A stretch of DNA of 41,003 nt. It comes from Nitratireductor sp. ZSWI3. Its GTDB lineage: Bacteria > Pseudomonadota > Alphaproteobacteria > Rhizobiales > Rhizobiaceae. The translations under genes were made by a program, and so were the position numbers. Of the stretch, positions 16,944-27,699 are shown piece after piece. Under the pieces are notes generated by a model, which worked only from the letters and a program-made list of their open reading frames with translations, ran no database searches and was not told where the DNA came from. The stretch is taken from the NCBI RefSeq assembly GCF_024655565.1, contig NZ_JANKOF010000036.1, positions 1-41,003 on the forward strand, given 5' to 3'. Each line of letters begins with the position of its first letter. Positions within the stretch are counted from its first letter, which is position 1.

Positions 16944-17521
16944 GCCCGTTACGAAACCCGTCGAGCGGCATCGCCTTGCCGGAAAGGGCTTTGGGCCCGG
17001 CCGGAGCATGCCGGCCGCTGGGGTAATTTCGTCGGCTCAACGATTTTGCGCGGCCTCAAACGCCGCACCGCCCCCCGAGGCGGCCCGGATGCGATGCTGT
17101 AAAGCGGGTGAAGCAAAAAGCCGGACGGGGGAAAGCCATCTGGAACGGCTCGATCGGCTGGCTGGGCATATACCCGGATAGGTCCTGTTGGGGCTCGTTG
17201 GGACCCCCCATGACCAGTCGATTTCCGCCCGTCCGGAAATGTTTCATGGCCGATATGATTACCACAATAGATGACTTTAGTGAGACGGTCGCAGAGCAAA
17301 TATGGTGCGATCACACCATATGGACCGGCGCAGTATCACCTTTTCGGCAGATTCGTCATGCAACGGCCCGTATGGATGCCGCCAAAGCGGCTGTAAGGCC
17401 GCTGTTTCGGGCTACGCCGGAGGCTGAAACCAAAGAATGAAAGAAAATGAATGCCACCGAAGCCTGCACCAAAAAAAGCCGGGCCGGCGTATGATCGTTC
17501 GATGCGGTGAAAAAGGAAGAA
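16944..17521. other. Intergenic region between the pst promoter and the left attachment site
   Basis: No gene could be supported here. A 110-codon open frame on the plus strand (17108-17440) has no clear ribosome site or recognisable motif and is treated as chance. Before the element inserted, this flank would have joined directly to the tRNA-Glu region. Confidence 0.5.
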
Positions 17522-17536
17522 TGGCACTCCCAAGGG
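17522..17536. repeat. Left attachment site of the integrated element (15-bp core)
   Basis: TGGCACTCCCAAGGG is identical to the 3' end (CCA and acceptor stem) of the tRNA-Glu gene at the other end of the element. The flanking bases differ at once on both sides, so the duplication is exactly 15 bp. Confidence 0.85.
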
Positions 17537-17623
17537 AAGTCCACTTATCCTGAAAAATCAAAGCACTTAGCCCGTCCAACCTCCAAAAATCGGGCCTCTG
17601 AAAACATTGACGTTTCTTCGCCA

Positions 17624-17785
17624 ATGTCCAACTGCGACGAAGCGGCACTCTGGTATGCAGTGAACCGCGAGGTTTGTACCCGCCCAATTGTGCCTACGCT
17701 GCGCAAGCAATTCTGTCTGACCACACTTGAAACCATCAAGGTGATCCAGGCTGCCGATGCCATTCGAGCGGAAGCGGGTCGCTGA
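17624..17785 (+). CDS. Small protein of unknown function at the left end of the element
   Basis: 53 aa from the ATG at MSNCDEAALWYAVNRE. The sequence contains RPIVPTLRKQFCLTTLETIKVIQAA, here split as RPIVPTLRKQF and LTTLETIKVIQAA, which looks like a short helix-turn-helix-type segment. Its TGA overlaps the ATG of the next gene by one base, so they are translationally coupled. It begins 87 bp inside the left att site, with no evident promoter between. Confidence 0.6.
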   Translation: MSNCDEAALWYAVNREVCTRPIVPTLRKQFCLTTLETIKVIQAADAIRAEAGR

Positions 17786-18612
17786 TGTCTGCTGTCATTG
17801 ACAAAGGCGACATGATGAACGCGCACGTCGCGCTCAATCTCGCGCCAGGTCTTTCCGGGAACACGCGCCGTGTAGCCGGCGCTCTGCTCGAGCATTTCAA
17901 CCAGAAGACGGGGCGGTGCGATCCCAGCGTCGAGCGCTTGGCGCGGCTGCTGGGAATCGGCCGCGCGACCATCTTCCGAGCGCTTGATGAGATCTGCAAA
18001 GGCGACGGTGCCCTTTTCGAGATAGTGAGCGGCGGCGGTCGTGCGAACTGCAATTTCTATCGCCCTCGCTGGGACCGCTTTCGCGCACTTGTTGTCGATT
18101 GGAACGCCCGAATGAAGACGGGGGCAGCTCCAAGTGAAGCGAAGGAAACGGTCTCAGAAGTGAGACAAAAACAGTCTCAGAACTGCGACAGAAACGGTCT
18201 CAAAGATGAGACACAAACCCTCCGAAGGAACCCTCCGAAAGAACCCATAGCACTGACGGAGCAGGTTGAGGGGGGCAAAGTCTCTCCTAGCGAAAACTCA
18301 TTACCCTCCCCGCAACGGAACCGTCGCAACGGCTCTGGAAAGGGGCGTGAGCCGGACCCGCAGCGCTTCCTGATCCACGCCTTACGAGGTGGGAAGGCAA
18401 TTTCCCATGCGGAGGCTGCGCGCAACGCAGCTGAGAGACGTTTCACCCGCGATCTGAACGCCGCCCTGAACAGCGAGGCGGTGATGCTGGCGCTCATGGA
18501 TGCACCGGCGATCTACGACAAGGCGATCAACGCCGAGCTGGCGCAGCGGGGTGCCGGGCTGCCGCACGCATTGGCGGCTCTGAACGGAGAAAGGGCAAGG
18601 CAATGGGCCTGA
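17785..18612 (+). CDS. Helix-turn-helix replication initiator-like protein
   Basis: 275 aa. An N-terminal winged-helix/HTH_36-type domain (about 25-95) includes TRRVAGALLEHFNQKTGRCDPS and, separately, RLARLLGIGRATIFRALDEI, as in phage and plasmid initiators. A low-complexity linker (about 110-185) is encoded by an iteron array. The C-terminal part (about 195-275) is helical and unassigned. Initiators of lambda-O type likewise carry their origin inside the gene. The stop overlaps the connector gene by 10 bp. A purely regulatory role is possible, but the iterons favour replication. Confidence 0.7.
   Translation: MSAVIDKGDMMNAHVALNLAPGLSGNTRRVAGALLEHFNQKTGRCDPSVERLARLLGIGRATIFRALDEICKGDGALFEIVSGGGRANCNFYRPRWDRFRALVVDWNARMKTGAAPSEAKETVSEVRQKQSQNCDRNGLKDETQTLRRNPPKEPIALTEQVEGGKVSPSENSLPSPQRNRRNGSGKGREPDPQRFLIHALRGGKAISHAEAARNAAERRFTRDLNAALNSEAVMLALMDAPAIYDKAINAELAQRGAGLPHALAALNGERARQWA
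18144..18242. repeat. Iteron array inside the initiator gene, candidate replication origin
   Basis: Three 23-bp units start at 18144, 18167 and 18190. Each is a 7-bp spacer of type RRAAACG plus a 16-bp dyad: GTCTCAGAAGTGAGAC, GTCTCAGAACTGCGAC, GTCTCAAAGATGAGAC. Units 1 and 3 have perfect 6-bp arms. Two 13-bp direct repeats follow (ACCCTCCGAAGGA, ACCCTCCGAAAGA). Because 23 is not a multiple of three, each unit is read in a different frame and the encoded residues do not repeat, so selection acts on the DNA. Confidence 0.75.
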
Positions 18613-19172
18613 AACTGATCACGCCGCCGGACGGTGAACCGGTGACGTTGGAGGAATTGAAGCATTGGAGCCGCGTCGATTTCGACGACGACGATGCGCT
18701 GATAGCAGCGAATGGCGCGGCGGCTCGTGAGTTCTGCGAGACCGCGACCGGCAAGCAGTTCGTCGCGGCGACGTGGGAGCTTACGACGCGCAGCCTTGGC
18801 CGTGGGCCGTTCGTGCTCCCGAAACCGCCGCTGCGATCCGTTGAGAGCATCGCCTATCGCGATATGTCAGGCGCATTGCAGGTGCTTGACCCTTCCGAGT
18901 ACCTGGTCGCGCCGGGCGAGCCCGGGACGGTCGAGCCGGTCTCGTCCTGGCCTGCAACCGCCAATCGCCCGGATGCCGTCGTGATCACGTTCGAGGCCGG
19001 CTATGGCGATGCAGCAGCGGTCCCGGATAAGATCAAGGTCGCGATCAAGGGGCTGGCCGCACACTGGTACGACCAACGCGAAGGCGTGACCAACGCCGAG
19101 GGCTTCACCCGACGCGTGCCAATGCATGTCCGGTCGCTGATCCTCCAGGCGAAAGACTGGAGGGCGGCATGA
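18603..19172 (+). CDS. Phage head-tail connector protein (gp6-like)
   Basis: 189 aa. The N-terminal LKLITPPDGEPVTLEELKHW and the pattern VDFDDDDALIAANGAAAREFCETATGK, here split as VDFDDDDALIAA and AAREFCETATGK, are typical of gp6-like / phiE125 gp8 connectors. So are the RSLGRGPFVLPKPPLRSVE motif and the C-terminal helix IKVAIKGLAAHWYDQRE. Such proteins form a ring below the portal and provide the tail docking surface. In a satellite lacking tail genes this would be the point of attachment for a helper tail. It overlaps its neighbours on both sides. Confidence 0.85.
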   Translation: MGLKLITPPDGEPVTLEELKHWSRVDFDDDDALIAANGAAAREFCETATGKQFVAATWELTTRSLGRGPFVLPKPPLRSVESIAYRDMSGALQVLDPSEYLVAPGEPGTVEPVSSWPATANRPDAVVITFEAGYGDAAAVPDKIKVAIKGLAAHWYDQREGVTNAEGFTRRVPMHVRSLILQAKDWRAA

Positions 19173-19486
19173 GCAACCGGTTCTATGGCACCGCCAATTG
19201 GCAGAGGATTGCAGCGCGCCAGCTCGCACGTAAGCCGATCTGCGAGGGCTGCGAGACCGCACCGGCCACCCTCGCAGACCACATCGTGCCGATCCGGCAG
19301 GGCGGTGCGATGCGCGACGCCGCGAACCTCCAGTCCCTTTGCCGGCAGTGCCACGCCGAGAAGACGGGCGCCGAGAAGGCAGGGCGATCGTGGACGCCGC
19401 CCAAGCATCGGGGCGCCTATAGCGACGGCTCGCCGCGCGATCCCAATCACCCATGGTTCACAGGGCCACCGCCAGGGGAGCGATGA
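19169..19486 (+). CDS. HNH endonuclease of the head-packaging module
   Basis: 105 aa. HNH core: CEGCE zinc pair, ADHIVPIRQGG (catalytic His), NLQSLCRQCHAEKT (Asn, second zinc pair and His). The C-terminal DPNHPWFTGPP is common in phage HNH proteins. In HK97-type cos phages the HNH protein sits next to terminase and assists cos cleavage by TerL. It overlaps the connector gene by four bases (ATGA). Confidence 0.88.
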   Translation: MSNRFYGTANWQRIAARQLARKPICEGCETAPATLADHIVPIRQGGAMRDAANLQSLCRQCHAEKTGAEKAGRSWTPPKHRGAYSDGSPRDPNHPWFTGPPPGER

Positions 19487-19489
19487 CGG

Positions 19490-19540
19490 GAGGGGGCGTT
19501 CAATCACCAAAACGCCCTTTTCCCAGACCGACGCCCCCTC
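19490..19540 (+). promoter_or_regulatory. Competing hairpins in the leader between HNH and large terminase genes
   Basis: GGGCGTT (19494-19500) pairs with AACGCCC (19511-19517), followed by TTTT, a terminator-like hairpin. The overlapping GAGGGGGCGT (19490-19499) pairs instead with ACGCCCCCTC (19531-19540). The two structures exclude each other. This could be an attenuator of terminase expression or part of a packaging site. Confidence 0.45.
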
Positions 19541-19584
19541 TCAATTCACAGTTAGTTTCAGGATTTTCAAAGGCTTAGGACGAA

Positions 19585-21231
19585 ATGGGCAAGCGAGGAC
19601 CGAAAGGACATACCGAGATCGCGGCCAGCCGGGCGACCGCCGAGGTGAAGAAGCCGCGCCGCCGGCCTAGCTGGCAGCGCAAAGGCCTATCGCGGGCCGG
19701 GCGCGTCATCGCCTTCATCGAGAGCCTGAAAATCACGGCCGGCGTCCATGCCGGCAAGCCGTTCAAGCTGCGCCAGTGGCAACGCGAAATCATCGAGGCG
19801 ATCTATGCGACCGGCGAGGACGGCCGGCGGACGATCCGCCAGGCGCTGATTACGATTCCTCGCAAGAACGGCAAGACGGCTCTCGCCGCCGCCCTGGCGC
19901 TGGCGCACCTCGTCGGCCCGGAAGCCGAGGCGCGCGGGCAAGTCTACAGTGCCGCCAGCGACCGCGACCAGGCCGCAATCATCTTTCGCGAGATGGTCGC
20001 CATGATCATGGCCGACCAGGCGCTTGCCGATCGCATCGTCATCCGGGAGCACAACAAGACGCTGGCCGACAACGAGACGGGCAGCGTCTACCAGGCTATG
20101 AGCTCCGACGCTCGCAAGGCGCACGGTCTCAGCCCGTCATTCGTGGTCTGCGACGAGCTCGCGCAATGGCACGGCCGCGACCTCTACGACAACCTGATCA
20201 CTGGCACAGGCGCGCGCGCCGAACCGCTCGTCGTCATCATTTCCACGAAATCCGCCGCCTCGTCGCACGTGATGTCCGAGTTGGTGCTTTACGGCGAGAA
20301 GGTGCGCGACGGGGTTGTCGAGGATCCTGCATTCCTGCCGGTCATCTACGGCGCGGCCGAGGACGCCGACCCGTGGGACGAGGCGACCTGGTTTGCCTGC
20401 AATCCAGCGCTGGGCGACTTTCGCAGCCTGGAGGAAATGCGCGCGGCCGCAGCTCAGGCGCAACGCCTGCCGGCGCGTGAGCCGAGCTTTCGCCTGCTCT
20501 ACCTAAATCAGCCGGTCGATCCCGCGAGCCGCTTCCTGAATGGCCCGGACTGGCGCGCATGCGCCGGCGACGTAACGCCCTACATGCTGGCCGGGCATCG
20601 CTGCTTTCTCGGCCTTGACCTGTCCAGCACAACGGACCTGACCGCGCTTGCCGCCTGGTTCCCGGAAACAGGCGACCTGCTCACCTGGTTCTGGACGCCG
20701 GCCGAGACGCTGGAGGAAGCCGAACGCCGCGACCACGTGCCCTATCAGCTCTGGGCGCGGCAAGGCTTGCTGGAGACGACGCCCGGGCGGGCGATCGACA
20801 AGAGCTTTGTCGTGCACCGAATCGCCAAGCTCGTCGCCGACTTCAAGGTCGAGGGCTGCGCCTATGACCGCTGGGGAATCCACGAGGTGCGCCGGCTGAT
20901 CGCCGACGCCGGCATCAAGATCGAGATGATCGAGTGGGGGCAGGGCTTCAAGGACGCCGCCCCGGCGCTCTCGGCGATCGAGACGGCCGTGCTGCAGAAG
21001 AAGCTGCGCCATGCCGGTCATCCCGTCATGGATATGTGCGTGGCCAACGCCGTCGCCATCACCGACCCGGCCGGCAACCGCAAGCTGGTGAAGGACCGCG
21101 CCAACGGCCGCATTGATGGCCTGGTCGCCGCTTCCATGGCGCTCGGGCTGGCCTCGCGCACCACGCCCAAGAAACCGTCCGTCTACCAGACCAGAGGGGT
21201 TTTCGGCCTCGATCTGGCGCAAAGCGCATGA
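19585..21231 (+). CDS. terL: Phage terminase large subunit
   Basis: 548 aa. ATPase domain: adenine-binding FKLRQWQREIIEAIY, Walker A-type IPRKNGKTALAA (about 90), Walker B VVCDELAQW (about 188), coupling motif IISTKSA. RNase H-like nuclease domain: first Asp in FLGLDLSSTTDLTA (about 345), further acidic residues near YDRWGIHEV and late in the chain. The first residues, MGKRGPKG, resemble the start of a P27-type small terminase instead of a large one. No separate small subunit gene is present. It packages DNA into proheads through the portal. Confidence 0.93.
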   Translation: MGKRGPKGHTEIAASRATAEVKKPRRRPSWQRKGLSRAGRVIAFIESLKITAGVHAGKPFKLRQWQREIIEAIYATGEDGRRTIRQALITIPRKNGKTALAAALALAHLVGPEAEARGQVYSAASDRDQAAIIFREMVAMIMADQALADRIVIREHNKTLADNETGSVYQAMSSDARKAHGLSPSFVVCDELAQWHGRDLYDNLITGTGARAEPLVVIISTKSAASSHVMSELVLYGEKVRDGVVEDPAFLPVIYGAAEDADPWDEATWFACNPALGDFRSLEEMRAAAAQAQRLPAREPSFRLLYLNQPVDPASRFLNGPDWRACAGDVTPYMLAGHRCFLGLDLSSTTDLTALAAWFPETGDLLTWFWTPAETLEEAERRDHVPYQLWARQGLLETTPGRAIDKSFVVHRIAKLVADFKVEGCAYDRWGIHEVRRLIADAGIKIEMIEWGQGFKDAAPALSAIETAVLQKKLRHAGHPVMDMCVANAVAITDPAGNRKLVKDRANGRIDGLVAASMALGLASRTTPKKPSVYQTRGVFGLDLAQSA

Positions 21232-21247
21232 GTACCTGCGTAGCACG

Positions 21248-21275
21248 GGAGGGTCTGCAAATTTGCACACCCTCC
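21248..21275 (+). promoter_or_regulatory. Hairpin between terminase and major capsid genes
   Basis: GGAGGGT (21248-21254) pairs with ACCCTCC (21269-21275), continuing after one mismatch as TGCAA / TTGCA. There is no T-run, so it is more likely an mRNA processing or stabilising element than a terminator. It sits 23 bp before the capsid ribosome site. Confidence 0.5.
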
Positions 21276-21310
21276 AGCAACCTCCCAAGCAACCAACGGA
21301 GAATATGAGA

Positions 21311-22576
21311 ATGCCGAAACTTCACGAACTGCAAGAACAGCGCAGCACCGCCGTCGCGGCCATGCGCGCCATCGCCGACAAGGCGGAGAAGGAAAGCCGC
21401 GACTACAGCGACGACGAGAACAAGCGGCACAAGACGCTCAAGGCCGAAATCACCGACCTTGACGCGAAGATCGAGCGCGCCCGCGACCTGGCGGATGCCG
21501 AGCGCCATGCGCCGGCCATCGTCCAGGGCAACGGCAAGGATGGCCAGTTCGAGGAACGGGCGCGATCCTTCTCGATCACCAAGGCGATTTCGGCCCGCCT
21601 GGGCGATGACGTCGATGCGGGCTTCGAGCGGGAAATCAGCCAGGAGGTCGCGAAGCGATCGGGCCGCAAGTTCGAGGGCATCGCCGTGCCCGACGAGGTG
21701 TTCTTCTCCGAGAGGCGCACGCTTCTGGCCGGCTCCAGCGCTGCGGACCTGATTCCGAACGTGCATCGTCCCGACCTGTTCATCGATCGCCTGCGCTCCG
21801 CGCTGATCACCGGCCGCCTGGGCGCTACGGTGCTCGACAATCTGGTGGGCGACGTGGACATTCCACGCCAGACGGGCAGCTCCACCGCGCAATGGGTTGC
21901 CGAAGATGGCTCGCTCGCCGAGACCGACGCGGCGTTCGATGACGTGAAGCTGACGCCGAAGACGGTCGGCGCCATGACCAGCTTTTCGCGCCGCACCATG
22001 ATCAACGCCGTTCCGGCGATCGAACAGCTCGTGCGCCGCGATCTGTCCGCCGTCATCGCCAATGCGATCGACGCCGCTGCCCTCCTGGGTGATGGCACCG
22101 GCAATACGCCGACCGGCGTGGCGAACACGGCCGGCGTCTTTGCCGGCACGCTGGCAACGCCGGCTTGGGCGGAAGTCTTGGCCATGATTGCCGGTATCCA
22201 GATGGACGATGCCGACATCGGTTCGATGGGCTGGGCGATGAACGCCAATGCCGTCGCCAAGCTGCGCAGCACCAACAAGGTTTCTGGCGAGCCCGAGCAC
22301 GGCTTCCTGATGATGGAGCCGGGCAACCTGGCGGGCTATGCCGTCGCCACCTCGACGGCTCTCCCTGGCGATGCCACGCCGACGCCGGCAACCGTGCTGT
22401 TCGGTGCGTTCTCCCAGCTCCTGATCGGCTATTGGAGCGGCACCGACATTCTGGTGAACCCCTACGCGGAAACCGCGTATGCCAAGGGCCGCGTCATGGT
22501 GCGCGTCATGCGGGACTGCGATGTGCAGGTGCGCCATGCCGAATCGTTCGCCGTCGCCGAAGACCTGGCGGTGTAA
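21311..22576 (+). CDS. HK97-type major capsid protein
   Basis: 421 aa. An N-terminal helical scaffold-like delta domain (about 1-110, MPKLHELQEQRSTAV... rich in Lys/Glu) precedes the HK97 fold, as expected for a protein trimmed by its prohead protease. Fold landmarks are RSALITGRLGATVLDN, IPRQTGSSTAQWVAEDG, AAALLGDGTGNTPTGV and a late GYWSGTDILVNPY. The ATG at 21311 is favoured since GGAG lies nine bases upstream; an ATG at 21305 is only three bases from it. It builds the icosahedral shell. Confidence 0.93.
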   Translation: MPKLHELQEQRSTAVAAMRAIADKAEKESRDYSDDENKRHKTLKAEITDLDAKIERARDLADAERHAPAIVQGNGKDGQFEERARSFSITKAISARLGDDVDAGFEREISQEVAKRSGRKFEGIAVPDEVFFSERRTLLAGSSAADLIPNVHRPDLFIDRLRSALITGRLGATVLDNLVGDVDIPRQTGSSTAQWVAEDGSLAETDAAFDDVKLTPKTVGAMTSFSRRTMINAVPAIEQLVRRDLSAVIANAIDAAALLGDGTGNTPTGVANTAGVFAGTLATPAWAEVLAMIAGIQMDDADIGSMGWAMNANAVAKLRSTNKVSGEPEHGFLMMEPGNLAGYAVATSTALPGDATPTPATVLFGAFSQLLIGYWSGTDILVNPYAETAYAKGRVMVRVMRDCDVQVRHAESFAVAEDLAV

Positions 22577-22579
22577 GCG

Positions 22580-23107
22580 ATGACGCGCGAGCAAAGAGCG
22601 CTCGTCGCGGAAATTCGGGCCAAGGGGCGGCGGCTGGAAGGCTACGCCGCCACCTTCGGCACCGAAGCCCGGATCGAGGATTTTTCCGAGATCATCGCAC
22701 CGGGCGCGTTCCGTGACAGCATCGACCGGGGCCGGGATGTCCTCGCCCTGGTCGATCACGACGCCAGGCGCGTGCTAGCCCGCACCAGGTCGGGCACGCT
22801 TCGGCTTTCGGAAGACAGCCGGGGCCTCGCCTTCGACCTCGATCTTCCGGACACGAGCTATGGCCGGGACGTGTTGGCCCTGGCCGAACGCGGTGACGTT
22901 GGCGGCATGTCGTTTGCCTTCACGGTCGATCCGTCCGGCGAGGAATGGCGCGGCGATCGGCGTGAGCTGCGCAGCGTCACGCTCCACGAAATCAGCGTCG
23001 TGTCGGCCTGGCCTGCCTATGACGGCACGATCGTTCACGCGCGCCACCGCGGGCTTGCGCTGCCGCCGCGGCTGGCGGCCGCCCGGAAATGGATGGAGAG
23101 CCTTTAA
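22580..23107 (+). CDS. HK97-family prohead protease
   Basis: 175 aa. LEGYAATFGTE and IAPGAFRDSI are family motifs. The catalytic His lies in ALVDHDARRVLART, Ser in GDVGGMSFAF and the third residue probably in SVTLHEISVVS. It cleaves the delta domain of the capsid protein during maturation. It starts three bases after the capsid gene, and its stop overlaps the portal start by one base. The order capsid, protease, portal is the reverse of the usual portal, protease, capsid. Confidence 0.92.
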   Translation: MTREQRALVAEIRAKGRRLEGYAATFGTEARIEDFSEIIAPGAFRDSIDRGRDVLALVDHDARRVLARTRSGTLRLSEDSRGLAFDLDLPDTSYGRDVLALAERGDVGGMSFAFTVDPSGEEWRGDRRELRSVTLHEISVVSAWPAYDGTIVHARHRGLALPPRLAAARKWMESL

Positions 23108-24324
23108 TGGGTATCTGGTCACGCTTCATTGGCCGGAAGGGCGAAAGCAGGTCTCAGCCGACGAGCTGGGACTTGCTGGGCACCTTCGGTCTGCCGACGC
23201 TCACCGGTCAGATGGTGAGCCCTGCCGTGGTCGAGGGCAACGCCGCCGCCTTTGCGGCCATCACGGTCATCTCCGAGGCGGTCGGCTCTCTGCCCCTGGT
23301 GATCTACAAACGGGACGGCGACGGCGTGCGCCAGGCCGAAACCTCGCATCCTGTCGCCAGGCTCTTTGCCGAGGCTCCGAACGATCTGCAAACGCCGGCC
23401 GAGCTCGTCACCATGATGATGGCGAATTGCCTGATGCACGGCGCGGCCTATGCGGAGATCGTCCGCGACGGCAACGGCCGGCCGACGGCACTATGGCCGA
23501 TCCATCCCGGCCAGATCGCCATTGAGAGGATCCTCGGAACCCGCCGCGTCCGCTACCAGGTGAGCGACGAGGTTGGCAGCCGTCGCCTTCTGCCGGGCGA
23601 AATCTTCACGATCCGCGATCGCTTCGATGACCCCTTCACGCCGCGCTCGCGGCTCGATCGCGCCCGCGAGGCGCTGGGCGGGGCCGTGGCGACGGAGCGC
23701 TTTGCCGCCTCGATATGGCGCAACGGGGCGCGTCTGAGCGGCGTCGTGCAGCATCCCGAGCAGATCGGCCCGGAAGCTGCCAAGACGCTGCGCGAGAGCC
23801 TCCAGGCGCTCTATGGCGGTTCGGAGAATGCCGGCCGCATCGCCGTCATCGAGGAAGGCTCGACCTGGAAGGAAATCTCGTCGTCTCCGGTTGACGCCGA
23901 ACTGAGCGAAGCGCGGCGGCTGGCCGTGCTCGAGGTGGCCCGCATCTTCAACGTTCCGGCCCCACTGCTCAACGAACTCACCAACGCGAATTATTCCAAC
24001 GTGGTCGAGCTGCGCCGCCAGTTCGCGGCCGGGACCATACAGCCGTGGCTGGTGCGCTGGGAGCAGGCAATCATGCGCGACCTGTTCTCCGAAGCCGGCA
24101 GGCGCTCGCACGAAGCCGAGTTCGACATGGACCTGCTGGTGCGCGCCGACTTCCTGCAACGGCTCCAGGGCTACCGCATCGGCCGCGAGGTCGGCCTCTA
24201 CAGCGCCAACGAGCTGCGCCGGTTCGAGAACCTCAATCCGCGTGACGATGCCGAAGCGAACGCCTATCTGAGCCCGCTTAATATGCAGCGCGAACAGAAG
24301 GGCGAGATGAAGGACGACGCATAA
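23107..24324 (+). CDS. Phage portal protein (HK97 family)
   Basis: 405 aa. Start MGIWSRFIGRK; family motifs are VSPAVVEGNAAAFAAITVISEAVGSLPL (here split, VEGNAAAFAAITVIS), the MMANCLMHGAAYAEIVRDGNG region, LRESLQALYGGSENAGR and FNVPAPLLNELTNANYSNV. The stem helix ends with WLVRWEQAIMRDLF. It forms the dodecameric DNA channel at one capsid vertex. It is the last gene of the rightward head operon; no tail gene follows. Confidence 0.93.
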   Translation: MGIWSRFIGRKGESRSQPTSWDLLGTFGLPTLTGQMVSPAVVEGNAAAFAAITVISEAVGSLPLVIYKRDGDGVRQAETSHPVARLFAEAPNDLQTPAELVTMMMANCLMHGAAYAEIVRDGNGRPTALWPIHPGQIAIERILGTRRVRYQVSDEVGSRRLLPGEIFTIRDRFDDPFTPRSRLDRAREALGGAVATERFAASIWRNGARLSGVVQHPEQIGPEAAKTLRESLQALYGGSENAGRIAVIEEGSTWKEISSSPVDAELSEARRLAVLEVARIFNVPAPLLNELTNANYSNVVELRRQFAAGTIQPWLVRWEQAIMRDLFSEAGRRSHEAEFDMDLLVRADFLQRLQGYRIGREVGLYSANELRRFENLNPRDDAEANAYLSPLNMQREQKGEMKDDA

Positions 24325-24526
24325 GGGTGCGGATATTCCGCACGAGAACGGCATAGGGTTGGCCGCCCAGGGGTGTTTTTCAGCCACCCCGAAAGGCTGG
24401 GATCGGACGGACAGTGCCCGGTAGGCTCATGCCGAAAACCCCGTCAGCTCGTGGCCGAGCTCCTTTCTCCCGGCGCGACGAGAGCCAGCGGCCGGGTTGA
24501 CCACCCGGCGTGGCTGGCATGACCTT
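24325..24526. other. Hairpin-rich noncoding stretch after the portal gene
   Basis: About 200 bp without a gene, holding at least four inverted repeats: GTGCGGA/TCCGCAC (24327-24343), GGGGTG/CACCCC (24370-24390), AGCTCG/CGAGCT near 24447-24462, and CCGGGT/ACCCGG near 24493-24509. It lies between convergent units. Candidates are a terminator region, a structured RNA or a packaging site; none is proven. Confidence 0.55.
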
Positions 24527-24775
24527 CTATGCAGTTGGGTGGTCTTCGTTCGTCGTATCGAGTTTGTTCAACTCCTTCCGAGCTATCGAATGCAGCTCCC
24601 AGCTCGACATTCCGCCAGCTAGCAGAAAGAACAGAGCAATAGCCAAGCTCCGTGTTTCAAGCGTCTGCATCGCCGTATAAACCGGCCCTAGACCACCAAG
24701 TCCCATGAAGATGAGCGATAATCCATTGAGGTAATTCGCCCTCAGTTTGATTTTTTCTTTTTCGCCTTCAGTCAT
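24527..24775 (-). CDS. Small two-helix membrane protein of the element
   Basis: 82 aa. Two hydrophobic helices: GLSLIFMGLGGLGPVYTAM (about 19-37) and SLAIALFFLLAGGMSSWEL (about 43-61), with charged ends. Two-helix small proteins next to phage repressors can be holin-like or superinfection-related; neither is established. It overlaps the repressor gene by four bases and is the second gene of that unit. A/T content is visibly higher than in the capsid operon. Confidence 0.65.
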   Translation of the reverse strand: MTEGEKEKIKLRANYLNGLSLIFMGLGGLGPVYTAMQTLETRSLAIALFFLLAGGMSSWELHSIARKELNKLDTTNEDHPTA

Positions 24776-25002
24776 TTTCTGAGCCTGACGCCTGCACCGC
24801 CACCGTTCTCGGGAATGAATTCGATACCAGCATTCTCCAGCGTGGAGCGGAGATCGGCAAGCGTCCTATCATAGGGCGCGCGGCGGTTTGCCTCAAAATT
24901 AGCGATCGTGGCTTTCGCCACTTTCGATTCAGCTGCCAGTCGTTCCTGTGACCAACCGATGAGCGCGCGTGCGGCTCGACACTGCGCAGGCGAGAGTGAC
25001 AT
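24772..25002 (-). CDS. XRE-family (Cro/CI-type) repressor
   Basis: 76 aa, essentially one helix-turn-helix domain: ARALIGWSQERLAAESKVAK, then ATIANFEANRRAP, with a short tail FIPENGGGAGVRLRK often seen in rhizobial phage-like regulators. It lacks a dimerisation or autoproteolysis domain, so it is unlikely to respond to RecA cleavage directly. A 22-bp operator overlapping the divergent promoter lies immediately upstream. It probably controls the right arm genes and integrase, and its own expression. Confidence 0.85.
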   Translation of the reverse strand: MSLSPAQCRAARALIGWSQERLAAESKVAKATIANFEANRRAPYDRTLADLRSTLENAGIEFIPENGGGAGVRLRK

Positions 25003-25029
25003 TTTTTGACTTACCTTGCACTAATAATG

Positions 25030-25062
25030 TTGACTTGCCAAATGGTATGACCTTATACCATT
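25030..25062 (+). promoter_or_regulatory. Rightward promoter with overlapping repressor operator
   Basis: TTGACT, 17 bases, TTATAC gives a good housekeeping promoter at 25030-25058. An inverted repeat AATGGTAT / ATACCATT with 6-bp spacer (25041-25062) covers the spacer and -10. The adjacent XRE protein is the obvious ligand. Confidence 0.75.
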
Positions 25063-25093
25063 AATGCAACATTACCACAACGGAGAAGCTTCG

Positions 25094-25351
25094 ATGCCGA
25101 ACGACGCCACGCGGGCGACCGCTGAACATTATTCAATGATTACGCTGCCGGAACTCCTTGTCTTTCCGGCCGACCTTCTGGATATCGCCCTCGACAGGTT
25201 GAGGACAATTAATCTGGCACTGTCGCCGGATAATACCGGATGGCACGACGATAAAGCTCTCAGGGCTGTGTGGGGCGCACTGAACGGAGTGATTGACGAT
25301 CTGGAGCATCTACGGAAATCACTCAACGATGTGAAAGGCGGTGCGGAATGA
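25094..25351 (+). CDS. Unknown small protein, first gene of the element's right arm
   Basis: 85 aa from the ATG after GGAGAA (MPNDATRATAEHYS). A mostly helical, acidic protein with ITLPELLVFPADLLDIALDR and VIDDLEHLRKSL. An in-frame ATG 30 bases earlier lies too close to the promoter's start site and is not used. The stop overlaps the next start (ATGA). No family is recognised. It is expressed from the repressor-controlled promoter. Confidence 0.6.
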   Translation: MPNDATRATAEHYSMITLPELLVFPADLLDIALDRLRTINLALSPDNTGWHDDKALRAVWGALNGVIDDLEHLRKSLNDVKGGAE

Positions 25352-25626
25352 GCGTGAATCTGTACGAGACTGGCCCGTTCCGGCATGTCGTTGATATGGA
25401 GGAACCGCTGACCGCCATTCGAGATCTGCTGATGGCCCTATCGATGATCTCGGAGACGCTGGGGAATACACAAGGTATGGTCGTTCAGCGCCTTGCTATG
25501 ATGGGGTTGAATAGCCTCGATGACGCTGAGGAACTCAGGGGCGAGCTTTTCGATCTCACACATCCAAACCGTGAGAACCTGGAGAGGGAAAGGGAGAAAC
25601 CCACAGTTGCTGATGGAGCCATTTGA
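25348..25626 (+). CDS. Unknown small protein, second gene of the right arm
   Basis: 92 aa. Helical, with PLTAIRDLLMALSMISETLG and a charged C-terminus (REREKPTVADG). It is coupled to the preceding gene by a four-base overlap, so the two may form a complex. No motif gives a function. Moderate A/T richness sets it apart from the capsid genes. Confidence 0.6.
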   Translation: MSVNLYETGPFRHVVDMEEPLTAIRDLLMALSMISETLGNTQGMVVQRLAMMGLNSLDDAEELRGELFDLTHPNRENLEREREKPTVADGAI

Positions 25627-25689
25627 GCAGCAGGTTGACGTCACTTGGAATTTTGATTTAGAAATGCAAATTGAAAAACGAGGGACGTC

Positions 25690-26235
25690 ATGCCACACTC
25701 AATTCTCCAGGCCGCTAAGATCGTTGCTGATGCAGCCCAATTGCCGTGGGCACGAGTGCAGAAAGTCTATCGGGAACTTCAGGAGGGTGGGGAGCCCCAC
25801 CCTTGGCTTCCTAAAAGCTCTGGCCGCAGTGTCTGGGCGGCGCACCCGAATCTCATTGCACACCTGCTAATTGGCCTAGCTTCAGGCAATCTCACTCCAC
25901 GTGCTGCCTGCGAGGGATTTGCGTATGCAACACTGGTTGGTTCCGACTTCGGAGAGCGGTTTAAAGATCGGCTCGGTGTTCTTGTCAGCACTCCTAACCT
26001 GGCCGGGACAATCAAGAAGATCGAGTTTCGACCAGACCTTGAGGATGTTGTTGTTGAGACTCGCGACGGCAAGAGCATTCGATATACTCTTGAGAGCGGA
26101 CTGCCAGTGCCGATGATTACTACCCGCACCGTGATTGATGGTCAGATGCTGAAGCTCCTTTCGGAGCGAATACAGTTCTCGTCACCAGGTTCTAGTCCGA
26201 TGATGTTGGCCGACATGAACGTGGGTGAAGAATGA
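25690..26235 (+). CDS. Unknown cargo protein of the element
   Basis: 181 aa. A helical N-terminal half (QAAKIVADAAQLPWARVQKV, then LIAHLLIGLASGNLTPRAA) and a beta-rich C-terminal part (IEFRPDLEDVVVETRDGKSI). GAGGG precedes the ATG. It is the largest gene between repressor and integrase, the place where satellites often carry interference or immunity genes, but no known defence motif is visible. Function not assigned. Confidence 0.6.
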   Translation: MPHSILQAAKIVADAAQLPWARVQKVYRELQEGGEPHPWLPKSSGRSVWAAHPNLIAHLLIGLASGNLTPRAACEGFAYATLVGSDFGERFKDRLGVLVSTPNLAGTIKKIEFRPDLEDVVVETRDGKSIRYTLESGLPVPMITTRTVIDGQMLKLLSERIQFSSPGSSPMMLADMNVGEE

Positions 26236-26357
26236 TTTTCCACACCCAATTTTCCCCCACCTCTCATGCCCGGCATTGTCCTGGGGACACGGTGATTCTC
26301 GCCGCGAGCCCAAGATCCTATCTCCATCGCGCCTCATTGTGGGCGCAGGGGTAGGCC

Positions 26358-26534
26358 ATGGCGAACCGTCCTGCACCGTATACCCAGGCTGACGTGACAC
26401 GAGCCGTTAAGGGCGCGGTGGCGGCCGGCCTGACGGTGCGGGAAGTAATCGCGACGGTCCAAGGTGTGCGCGTGATCTGCAGCGACGAGAAACCGCGCAA
26501 GCCTCAGAATGAATGGGATGAGGTGTGCGAATGA
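26358..26534 (+). CDS. Small DNA-binding-like protein preceding the integrase
   Basis: 58 aa: MANRPAPYTQADVTRAVKGA, then AAGLTVREVIATVQGVRV and an acidic tail. The pattern PAPYTQADVTRAVKGAxAAG recurs directly upstream of integrases in alphaproteobacterial prophages. A role as excision factor is possible but not shown. It overlaps the integrase ATG by four bases. Confidence 0.65.
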   Translation: MANRPAPYTQADVTRAVKGAVAAGLTVREVIATVQGVRVICSDEKPRKPQNEWDEVCE

Positions 26535-27616
26535 AGCGCCGCAATCCCTACCCCGGTCTCACCCGCGTCGTCGATCGCCATGGAAAGGTGCGCTGGCGGT
26601 TTCGCATGAAGGGCAAGCCATCCTGCTACATTCCCGGCGAATATGGCTCAAAGGCGTTCGATGTCGCTTACGAGAGCGCCCGCAAGGGCGAGACGCCAGC
26701 GCCTGAACACTCCCTCCGCGCCGACCACGGCACCTTTTCCTGGTTGATCGAGCAATATATGCGCGCGCCGGAATACGAGCGCCTGAACCAGCCCTTCAAG
26801 CGCAATCTCCAAGGTGAGATAGAGCGGTTCCGGCGCGAACATGGCGATAAGACCCTTGCCAACCTCCGCCCTCGCCACGTCGAGGGCCTCATCGCCCGAA
26901 AGGCCGCAACGCCGGCAGCCGCAAACAAGCTCCTGAAACTCATCCGCCGACTGTGCGTCTTTGCCGTCAAGCGGGAATACATCGCCATCGATCCGACCTA
27001 CGGTGTCAAGGGCTACAAGGCCAGCGGAGACGGCTACCATACGTGGGACGATGCCGAGATAGCCAAGTTCGAGGGGCACCATGGGACTGCTTCCAAGGCA
27101 GTGCTTGCGCTTCGCCTGATGCTCTACACTGGCGCGGCGCGACAGGACGCAGCCGCCATGGGCCGGCAGAATATCAAGAACGGTCGTATCGCGTACCGCC
27201 GCCACAAGACCGGTGGCGAGGTTGACTTACCTATCCATCCAGAGCTTGCTGCCGTTCTGGCTGGCGTGCCGGCCGACCGGATGCTGTTCATCACCCATGG
27301 AAAGGGTCGAAGCTACAACGCCGCGACCTTCGGCAACTGGTTTCACGACATGTGCGTTGCCGCCGGCCTGACCCATTGCTCACCGCACGGACTCCGCAAG
27401 GCCGGGGCAACGAGGCTCGCCAATGCCGGGTGTTCCGAATTTGAGATAATGGCCTTCCTGGGCCACCGGACACCCGCCGAAGCGAAGACGTACACGAAGC
27501 GCGCCAACCGGGCCAAGCTCGGCGACTCCGGCATGGCAAAGCTCCTCGGTGTGTCCAACCCCGTCACAAGGTTGGACAATCGCCGCGCCAAGAGGTTGAA
27601 ACCCAATGGAAAATAA
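26531..27616 (+). CDS. int: Tyrosine-type site-specific integrase
   Basis: 361 aa from the ATG overlapping the preceding gene (a GTG two codons earlier is also possible). An N-terminal arm-binding part (NPYPGLTRVVDRHGKVRWRF) is followed by a core-binding SAM-like domain (about 70-160). The catalytic domain has Arg in MLYTGAARQDAAAM, the HGLRKAGATRLA box (His, Arg), a second His in LGHRTPAEA and the nucleophile Tyr in AKTYTKRA. The stop is 8 bp from the tRNA-Glu 3' end used as att site, and no terminator intervenes. Confidence 0.93.
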   Translation: MKRRNPYPGLTRVVDRHGKVRWRFRMKGKPSCYIPGEYGSKAFDVAYESARKGETPAPEHSLRADHGTFSWLIEQYMRAPEYERLNQPFKRNLQGEIERFRREHGDKTLANLRPRHVEGLIARKAATPAAANKLLKLIRRLCVFAVKREYIAIDPTYGVKGYKASGDGYHTWDDAEIAKFEGHHGTASKAVLALRLMLYTGAARQDAAAMGRQNIKNGRIAYRRHKTGGEVDLPIHPELAAVLAGVPADRMLFITHGKGRSYNAATFGNWFHDMCVAAGLTHCSPHGLRKAGATRLANAGCSEFEIMAFLGHRTPAEAKTYTKRANRAKLGDSGMAKLLGVSNPVTRLDNRRAKRLKPNGK

Positions 27617-27623
27617 AAATCGC

Positions 27624-27638
27624 TGGCACTCCCAAGGG
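27624..27638. repeat. Right attachment site, 15-bp core within tRNA-Glu
   Basis: TGGCACTCCCAAGGG, identical to the left copy 10,102 bp away. It covers the CCA end, acceptor stem and start of the T arm of the tRNA gene, which remains intact. Confidence 0.85.
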
Positions 27639-27699
27639 GACTCGAACCCCTGTTTCCGCCGTGAGAGGGCGGCGTCCTAGACCGCTAGACGATGGGAGC
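27624..27699 (-). tRNA. tRNA-Glu (anticodon CTC)
   Basis: 76 nt with encoded CCA. Acceptor strands GCTCCCA / TGGGAGT, anticodon stem CCGCC / GGCGG around the loop CTCTCAC (anticodon at 27663-27665), T-arm GGGGTTCGAGTCCCC. It is the integration target of the satellite element. Confidence 0.95.

Follow-up and report, generated by a model that had tools for sequence, protein, structure and literature searches.

Capsid-forming phage-inducible chromosomal islands (cf-PICIs) were reportedly defined by Alqurainy et al. in 2023, in a paper in Cell Host and Microbe. In the accessible portions of four papers (PMC10690885, PMC10803314, PMC11389934, PMC13230959), these satellites are described as carrying genes for the large and small terminase subunits, an HNH protein, capsid, protease, portal and connectors, as having a mean length of 14 kb, and as forming three capsid clades. 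The host list in the available part of one paper (PMC10803314) consists primarily of Enterobacteriaceae, Pasteurella, Morganellaceae and several groups of Firmicutes and does not include Alphaproteobacteria, and capsid-forming satellites are there reported mainly from Enterobacteriaceae, a few other Gammaproteobacteria and Firmicutes. In this report we examine a 41,003-nucleotide stretch of DNA (hereafter the window) from the alphaproteobacterium Nitratireductor sp. ZSWI3 (genome G000, a 5.2-Mb draft; contig NZ_JANKOF010000036.1), which contains an integrated element of 10,102 bp at positions 17522-27638. This element is very probably a capsid-encoding, tail-less phage satellite.

Like cf-PICIs, the element has an integrase and a specific attachment (att) site, as well as its own capsid, protease, portal, connector, HNH and large terminase (TerL) genes, and no tail or lysis genes were found in it. 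Its capsid-protease-portal run is also present in the cf-PICI-like records L146 and L200. However, a small terminase (TerS), which is on the cf-PICI gene list in the available part of PMC10690885, was not recognised in the element. Furthermore, its adaptor, HNH and TerL genes precede the capsid gene, whereas the layout seen in L200 is capsid-protease-portal-connector-HNH-TerS-TerL, and its 10.1 kb compares with the mean of 14 kb given in the accessible text cited above. Its capsid lies outside the branch of the Klebsiella record L200, in a tree with long branches. As for AlpA or Stl-type regulation, a cf-PICI trait, the element has an XRE repressor, which may or may not be of that kind. Given the lack of a recognisable small terminase, the different gene order and the smaller size, we do not file the element as a cf-PICI. 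The best reading is that it would work like a cf-PICI by logic while belonging to a distinct alphaproteobacterial lineage. Where a first-pass annotation made from the sequence alone invoked cf-PICI logic, the part concerning an own head set and the lack of tail and lysis genes stands, whereas membership proper is not established because no small terminase was found. The same annotation viewed the gene order as a circular rotation of the cf-PICI order, which describes one arrangement among several, since gene order varies within the family.

Integration site and gene content

The element is flanked by 15-bp direct repeats whose core, TGGCACTCCCAAGGG, has two exact copies in the window, starting at 17522 and 27624, where 0.09 copies are expected with up to two mismatches. 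The left copy (attL, 17522..17536, no strand assigned) is an exact 15-bp twin of the right copy (attR, 27624..27638, likewise unstranded), which is the 3' end of a tRNA-Glu (ctc) gene on the minus strand (27624..27699). This assignment draws on ARAGORN, the repeat count and flank homology, and agrees with the original proposal of an approximately 10-kb element at tRNA-Glu. Homology of the right flank to other genomes of the genus starts exactly at base 27624 in all nine that were compared, and the insertion point on this side is well supported. A gene for a tyrosine integrase of 363 amino acids (26525..27616, plus strand; PF00589 2.3e-14, phrog_1 7.5e-37) converges on the tRNA 3' end.

The plus-strand order is small ORF, initiator-like gene, adaptor, HNH, TerL, capsid, protease and portal, followed by two minus-strand genes (for a small protein and the XRE repressor), three small plus-strand genes and the integrase gene facing the tRNA. 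The head and packaging set, all on the plus strand, encodes a gp6-like head-tail adaptor (189 amino acids; 18603..19172; PF05135 2e-10, phrog_442 2.9e-31), an HNH endonuclease (105 amino acids; 19169..19486; PF01844 4.6e-08, phrog_589 1.6e-21), TerL (548 amino acids; 19585..21231; PF20441, PF03354 and phrog_9 6.7e-145), an HK97-fold major capsid protein (21305..22576, with its start at 21305 or 21311; PF05065 1.4e-39, phrog_617 2.9e-84 and the capsid tree), an S78 prohead protease (175 amino acids; 22580..23107; PF04586 3.2e-39, phrog_80) and a portal protein (411 amino acids; 23089..24324; PF04860 1.5e-92, phrog_12). The XRE-type repressor (76 amino acids; 24772..25002, minus strand) is recognised by Pfam alone (PF01381 8.7e-07). 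A replication initiator-like protein of 275 amino acids with a helix-turn-helix (HTH) domain (17785..18612, plus strand; HTH_36 4.7e-07, phrog_270 1.3e-04, phrog_391 3.3e-04) is assigned more weakly than the head proteins. Profile searches therefore bear out the earlier proposal of an own integrase, repressor, initiator and HK97-type head set, less firmly for the initiator. No tail or lysis profile of Pfam or PHROGs matched the window proteins, again as proposed. One profile named terminase small subunit (phrog_4581, 2e-13) is matched by the HNH protein, but the match falls across its HNH domain and is therefore not counted as a small terminase.

All head ORFs are open, and they are under purifying selection. 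Relative to the nearest relatives (L045 and L046), dN/dS is approximately 0.07-0.13 for TerL, HNH, capsid, protease and portal and 0.29 for the part of the adaptor that was compared, although these values are rough because synonymous sites are near saturation. The corresponding protein identities are 87% for TerL, 88% for protease, 85% for portal, 78% for HNH, 75% for capsid and 55% for the adaptor part. The first-pass annotation held that the head genes are intact, which these data confirm, and that most of them overlap. Adjacent genes do overlap or lie close together. Three gene pairs overlap (initiator/adaptor, adaptor/HNH and protease/portal), while capsid and protease are separated by 3 bp and HNH and TerL by 98 bp.

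A family of elements of near-uniform length

A scan of IMG/VR with the window capsid yielded 16 relatives with 60-77% identity, and a capsid profile scan yielded 92. Eighty of these were retained, and their identities show a break between 54% and 39%. Eighteen capsid loci were found in named genomes. In a capsid tree from which 10 duplicate rows had been dropped, and for which the program warns of long branches, group A (defined by at least 50% capsid identity to that of the window) comprises 51 capsids including the window's, the other 50 distinct capsids being 54-77% identical to it. This group forms one side of a branch with an SH-aLRT value of 100. A sister group B, listed by hand from neighbouring genes, comprises 17 capsids that are 32-40% identical to the window's and is weakly supported by itself (11-33). 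Groups A and B together with an Acinetobacter group (10 rows) split from other capsids with support of 87-91, below the program's mark of 95.

We delimited 28 elements (20 of group A and eight of group B) with lengths of 9,805-11,081 bp (mean 10,520, standard deviation 301). Half of them are located at tRNA or transfer-messenger RNA (tmRNA) genes identified by ARAGORN (Glu, two Pro, two Gly, Asn, Thr, Leu, Ser, two tmRNA, Gln and two Phe), where the evidence for each of the two tmRNA sites is a 14-bp match with one mismatch, and that for the Ser site a match of 14 bp. Three reside in the terL gene of a gene transfer agent (GTA), five are circular contigs (L050, L059, L100, L106 and L119) with end repeats of 19-141 bp, and six, which are less sure, are bounded solely by direct repeats of 16-51 bp (L049, L085, L149, L150, L151 and L153). 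Repeat searches were restricted to spacings of 7-20 kb or 8.5-13.5 kb and loci truncated by contig ends or lacking a clear repeat were excluded, and therefore the narrow size spread is partly conditioned, except for the five circles and the three GTA cases. The first-pass annotation had suggested looking for islands of about 10 kb, without tail genes, that recur at tRNA genes, and these elements include such islands.

Genes were called in 18 of the 28 elements with a simple caller, except that curated genes were used for the window, where the caller performs poorly. Portal clusters are present in all 18 elements, TerL in 17 (all but L076), capsid in 17 and protease in 16, the missing capsid and protease genes being detected by tblastn. 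Integrase clusters occur in 13, and a further scan added L049 (where the gene is split in two) and L085. The gp6-like adaptor was clustered in eight (C5) and three (C10) elements, and four have a clustered head-closure protein (C8, phrog_25). The replication genes vary between elements and include O-like initiators, a primase, a family A DNA polymerase, an NrS-1-like primase/helicase and an AAA ATPase.

No tail family was found in the 18 gene-called elements, for proteins of at least 90 amino acids and the PHROG families among the matches listed. The scan covered 82 non-core proteins of at least 90 amino acids from 17 relatives (best 25 of 66 families). A reduced scan covered 61 proteins, 56 from relatives and five from the window (best 25 of 30 families, down to E = 0.006), and of the 26 proteins outside it, 18 were scanned separately (10 and eight) and eight were assigned by cluster only. 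The profile scans exclude 60 predicted proteins shorter than 90 amino acids. Likewise, no lysis family appears among the PHROG and Pfam matches listed. Gene order differs in sister elements such as L064 and L068, which have a capsid-protease-portal-adaptor run with HNH-TerL elsewhere. In some relatives the TerL is close but the portal distant, in others the opposite holds, and so the elements appear to exchange head modules.

Within 397 genomes drawn from the order, 12 have a capsid match at E <= 1e-20. These are the window's own genome, which is the sole carrier of group A in this sample, seven with group B elements (L149-L154 and L159), and four where no other satellite gene was detected nearby. 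Among the named carriers of group A are the isolate Mesorhizobium sp. WSM3626 as well as metagenome-assembled genomes (MAGs) of Pseudolabrys, Caulobacterales, Reyranella, Rhodoplanes and Rhodobacteraceae. Among those of group B are Rhizobium sp. GN54, a Sphingomonadaceae genome, and MAGs of Hirschia and Porphyrobacter. As judged from these matches, the family is spread across many Alphaproteobacteria and is sparse in any one sample. The annotation's suggestion of an undescribed rhizobial lineage is retained as to a distinct lineage, but its carriers are not only rhizobial. Among the titles and opening abstracts of the matches listed in a full-text literature search, which left most subscription papers outside its reach, there were no alphaproteobacterial capsid-forming satellites and no satellites in GTA genes.

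Taken together, these sequence comparisons establish that the integrated 10.1-kb element is a discrete unit. It carries genes for an integrase, a repressor, an initiator-like protein and a conserved set of head and packaging proteins, and it belongs to a large family whose delimited members are of near-uniform length. If these are satellites, the capsid-forming strategy extends to many Alphaproteobacteria, where the elements are smaller and their genome lengths vary little. This narrow size suggests a dedicated head capacity, which makes particle size a testable prediction.

Proposed function and alternative explanations

We propose that the XRE repressor keeps the element silent until helper infection or induction, which would trigger excision at the tRNA-Glu core. 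Replication might then start from a 23-bp unit present in 3.2 tandem copies within the initiator gene (18146..18218, plus strand; TRF score 95), and these repeats are possible iterons or an origin. A small head holding approximately 10.5 kb would be built, HNH and TerL would cut and package the element DNA, and the adaptor would close the head, after which helper tails would be docked and the particles would exit via helper lysis. The small-terminase step might fall to the helper, to an unrecognised protein or to an N-terminal extension of TerL. This extension is apparent relative to the TerL of PDB entry 6z6d, which we take to be that of HK97 and which aligns from profile position 29, and Met-Gly-x-Arg-Gly starts all 11 of the 11 aligned TerL proteins. 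That the extension replaces a small terminase is a guess.

Several observations weigh against the interpretation as a satellite. Excision, packaging and the helper of the window copy are steps that we infer from sequence. A small terminase was looked for among the window proteins with Pfam and PHROGs and none was recognised. Several relatives have a head-closure gene (phrog_25), which the window copy lacks. No integrase is detectable in L050, L059 and L100, three of the five circular contigs, which therefore may be episomes instead of excised islands. Finally, the insertion is not clean. The nearest left-flank piece (pstS) and the tRNA-Glu gene reside on one contig, 3.2-3.7 kb apart, in eight of the nine same-genus genomes, and this interval is absent from the window. 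Homology of the left flank to relatives ends near position 17239, and the roughly 280 bp to the left of attL (17240-17521) have no match at the corresponding place in relatives. In G008, the one relative inspected (L198 738-3650), a 970-codon gene that we named a hybrid histidine kinase by reading its sequence lies between tRNA-Glu and pstS and is absent from the window. The left side of the site is rearranged, and therefore we do not claim a clean empty site.

Two side observations concern these same loci. The three circular group A members without an integrase have lengths of 9.8-10.4 kb and share genes particular to them (clusters C13 and C14), and possibly represent an episomal branch. In the ninth same-genus genome (G007), where the pstS flank and the tRNA are on separate contigs, a different integrase, 34% identical to the window's, abuts the same tRNA-Glu (L197 18046-19125).

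Given their own replication modules and the circular members that lack a detectable integrase, elements of this family could instead be autonomous minimal viruses, meaning satellites or episomes that assemble a tail-less or unusually tailed particle without a helper tail. The 60 short proteins outside the profile scans could include a very small tail or plug protein. However, the gp6-like adaptor, and the head-closure protein of several members, fit best with the joining of a tail, and no lysis family was listed, and thus we judge this explanation very unlikely.

A defective prophage that has lost its tail and lysis genes while its head genes remained intact by chance is equally improbable in our estimate. 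The genes are indeed ordinary HK97-type head genes, and relatives include prophage-like loci with a distant TerL, several of which have a portal gene directly after TerL (as judged without regard to tails). This explanation is nevertheless rejected, being largely refuted by the recurrence of a same-length unit in many divergent elements, in circular copies and at different integration sites. The low dN/dS values of TerL, HNH, capsid, protease and portal also speak against chance preservation. Tail genes directly after the portal gene in close relatives, which the first-pass annotation had named as the mark of a deletion derivative, are absent from the 18 gene-called elements among proteins of at least 90 amino acids. 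As far as these relatives indicate, the window element is not a private deletion derivative, and the earlier preference for a functional element over a decayed prophage is upheld. A second GTA or GTA-derived locus, suggested by adaptor and closure proteins that resemble those of GTAs, is hardly credible for an element that has an integrase, att sites, a repressor and an initiator-like gene, whose capsid is widely separated in the tree from that of the host's GTA, and whose host has a separate GTA-like cluster.

Satellites within GTA terL genes

In L055, and in the near-identical contig L056 from another metagenome, the GTA terL gene of the host is split by a satellite. The part to the left of the satellite encodes residues 30-415 of GTA TerL and the part to the right residues 410-452, and this right-hand remainder of terL is followed by GTA portal, protease, capsid and tail tube genes and by a 1,300-codon gene taken for the GTA tail-tip gene. 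The L055 insert is 10,664 bp and only 8 bp match exactly. Insertions of the same kind are found in L089 and L095, where the inserts measure 10,436 and 10,752 bp and the repeat matches at 14 of 16 bp, and the left half of GTA terL lies beside a satellite in L097. The integrases of these satellites are 81-93% identical. When such an integrase was used as the query, three more loci emerged, L206, L207 and the apparently degraded L204, in which satellite genes lie beside the right half of GTA terL. The same scan gave L211, and a search of genomes gave L220 (genome G112), where only the integrase is visible, beside the left half and on the opposite strand. Reading resumes at DEMCDF in all six right halves that were inspected, and the insertions share GTA terL codons of approximately 409-416 (EDEMCDF), near the 3' end of the gene. 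The shared codons and related integrases therefore indicate that a subfamily of tyrosine integrases, carried by several satellites, targets GTA terL. Integrases of the wider family (46-58% identical; L210 and L212-L217) have no GTA gene within the available flanking stretch. Insertion removes roughly the last 38 residues of GTA TerL, a loss that would be expected to stop GTA packaging.

These insertions raise the question of whether GTAs could be helpers. The window's host carries RcGTA-like genes on two contigs (L164 and G000:C135), taken for one split cluster, with an open TerL frame of 453 codons. Four family searches of this genome, which did not extend to other prophage types, placed HK97-type head and tail genes only in the satellite and the GTA-like genes. 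Compared with the GTA adaptor of its own host, the window adaptor reaches 84 bits, and its highest score among 13 matching phage records (of 50,697) is 74, in a collection that may hold few alphaproteobacterial siphophages. Similarly, the L100 adaptor scores 114 bits against GTA and 100 against phage (best among 12 of 42 matching records), and the L050 closure protein 59 and 55 (best among 12 of 20 matching records). The reverse holds for the window's portal (76 bits for GTA, 219 for phage), capsid (32 bits for the host's own GTA capsid, 172 for phage) and TerL (27 and 295), the phage values being the best among the matches listed. By these scores, the core head proteins are phage-like and the neck proteins (adaptor and closure) resemble those of GTAs.

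Several findings count against a GTA helper. The adaptor margins between GTA and phage are small, only three of the 15 clustered neck proteins (C5, C8 and C10) were compared with phages, and some of the other neck proteins have either weak GTA matches (38 bits for the L057 adaptor, 28 for the L087 closure protein) or none. Moreover, GTA terL is the site of three of the 28 delimited elements, and tRNA or tmRNA genes are that of 14. A GTA-type capsid (E <= 1e-60) was detected in 12 of the 18 satellite-bearing genomes, the window's own included, while the six without one include the isolate Mesorhizobium sp. WSM3626 (G433) and the 99% complete G295. The proposal that GTAs help all family members is weakened by this count. 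Use of GTA tails by satellites is possible, on this evidence, but would not be universal.

We also consider it unlikely, though less so than the alternatives weighed above, that at least one branch consists of satellites of GTAs and not of phages. Such a satellite would insert in GTA terL, build its own 10.5-kb head and use GTA tails via its GTA-like adaptor, the co-directional portal-to-tail genes being kept, and the window element could do the same from its tRNA site. If this were true, a domesticated host system would have become the vehicle of a satellite. GTAs are not known to be self-mobilising. Through its target, the branch found in GTA terL connects satellites with GTAs, which are otherwise treated separately, and offers a concrete way into the question of whether GTAs are exploited or silenced by mobile elements.

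Relationship to other capsid-encoding elements

The RcGTA-like GTAs are similar to the satellites in their gp6-like adaptor and head-closure proteins. They differ in that satellite capsid, TerL and portal proteins are closer to those of phages, the window capsid not being of the GTA type in either score or tree position. In addition, their head and tail genes form one cluster, whereas no tail genes were found in the window element. A cf-PICI capsid of E. coli has been grouped with a GTA capsid by structure, according to the part of the source available (PMC12846349). In our capsid tree, the Klebsiella record L200 falls near GTA and away from the window family, which suggests, given the long branches without proof, a separate origin of the window family from L200-type cf-PICIs.

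Record L200 itself (LR881103.1, vB_KppS-Ant, 16.5 kb) is annotated with capsid, a protease-like gene, portal, connectors, an HNH-like gene, small and large terminase, integrase and primase, and with one gene named tape measure protein. The accessible text of PMC8006926 calls it a filamentous prophage. From its gene content it looks like an isolated cf-PICI.

The Vibrio cf-PISPs are, in the available part of their description (PMC13230959), 15.8-kb satellite-plasmids with parA and repA. They are likewise capsid-forming, tail-less and satellite-like, and some members of the window family are circular too, but the window element is integrated. The Acinetobacter group (L146, L179, L182, L183 and L184) has capsids 36-37% identical to the window's. 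Four of its contigs (L179, L182, L183 and L184) are circular at 9.8-10.1 kb and therefore may be satellite-plasmids. More broadly, L146 and L178-L186 are capsid-encoding elements related to an insert in the Acinetobacter plasmid pHZE33-1-1. This group is similar in size to the window element, and no tail gene is listed in the annotated stretch of pHZE33-1-1, whose gene table is incomplete. However, the plasmid has an adjacent RepM replication gene and the order capsid-protease-portal-HNH-hypothetical-TerL-connector-closure. The Streptomyces satellites MulchRoom and MiniFlayer also carry their own capsid and packaging genes but, as described in the accessible part of PMC10690885, have terminal repeats of approximately 1 kb, scaffolding and small terminase genes, and virulent actinophage helpers.

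Sequence searches of the PDB matched capsid, portal and terminase chains, none of which is identifiable as a cf-PICI protein among the matches listed, and the adaptor had no match among PDB sequences. An AlphaFold2 model of the capsid has a mean pLDDT of 45, which is too poor for a fold search. The N-terminal part of the capsid protein is predicted to be helical and may be delta-domain-like.

Additional features

A search for a packaging site among k-mers common to 18 complete elements gave eight mapped motifs, almost all of which are in coding sequence (portal, capsid, TerL and others), and therefore yielded no cos candidate. The CtrA site TTAAN7TTAA occurs in one of the 18 elements, and so there is no sign of CtrA control.

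The remaining genes of the element have no function assigned. The minus-strand gene next to the repressor encodes an 82-amino-acid protein (24527..24775) that is possibly a membrane protein, as read from its sequence, and has no match in PHROGs. The three small plus-strand genes encode proteins of 95 (25064..25351) and 92 amino acids (25348..25626), neither with a tail family among the PHROG matches listed, and one of 181 amino acids (25690..26235) with no match in Pfam or PHROGs. The small ORF that precedes the initiator-like gene likewise has no Pfam or PHROGs match. As listed (92 codons from a GTG at 17507, 17507-17785), it would begin outside the element, whereas an inner ATG gives 53 codons (17624..17785, plus strand), and a piece of it is conserved upstream of HNH in L055. 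Some relatives have an HTH-like gene, as read from the sequence, upstream of capsid, and the one that was profiled had no match. In the satellite L057, located at tRNA-Pro, a gene at 9603-10205 matches phrog_4603, annotated as sialyltransferase, and is possible cargo.

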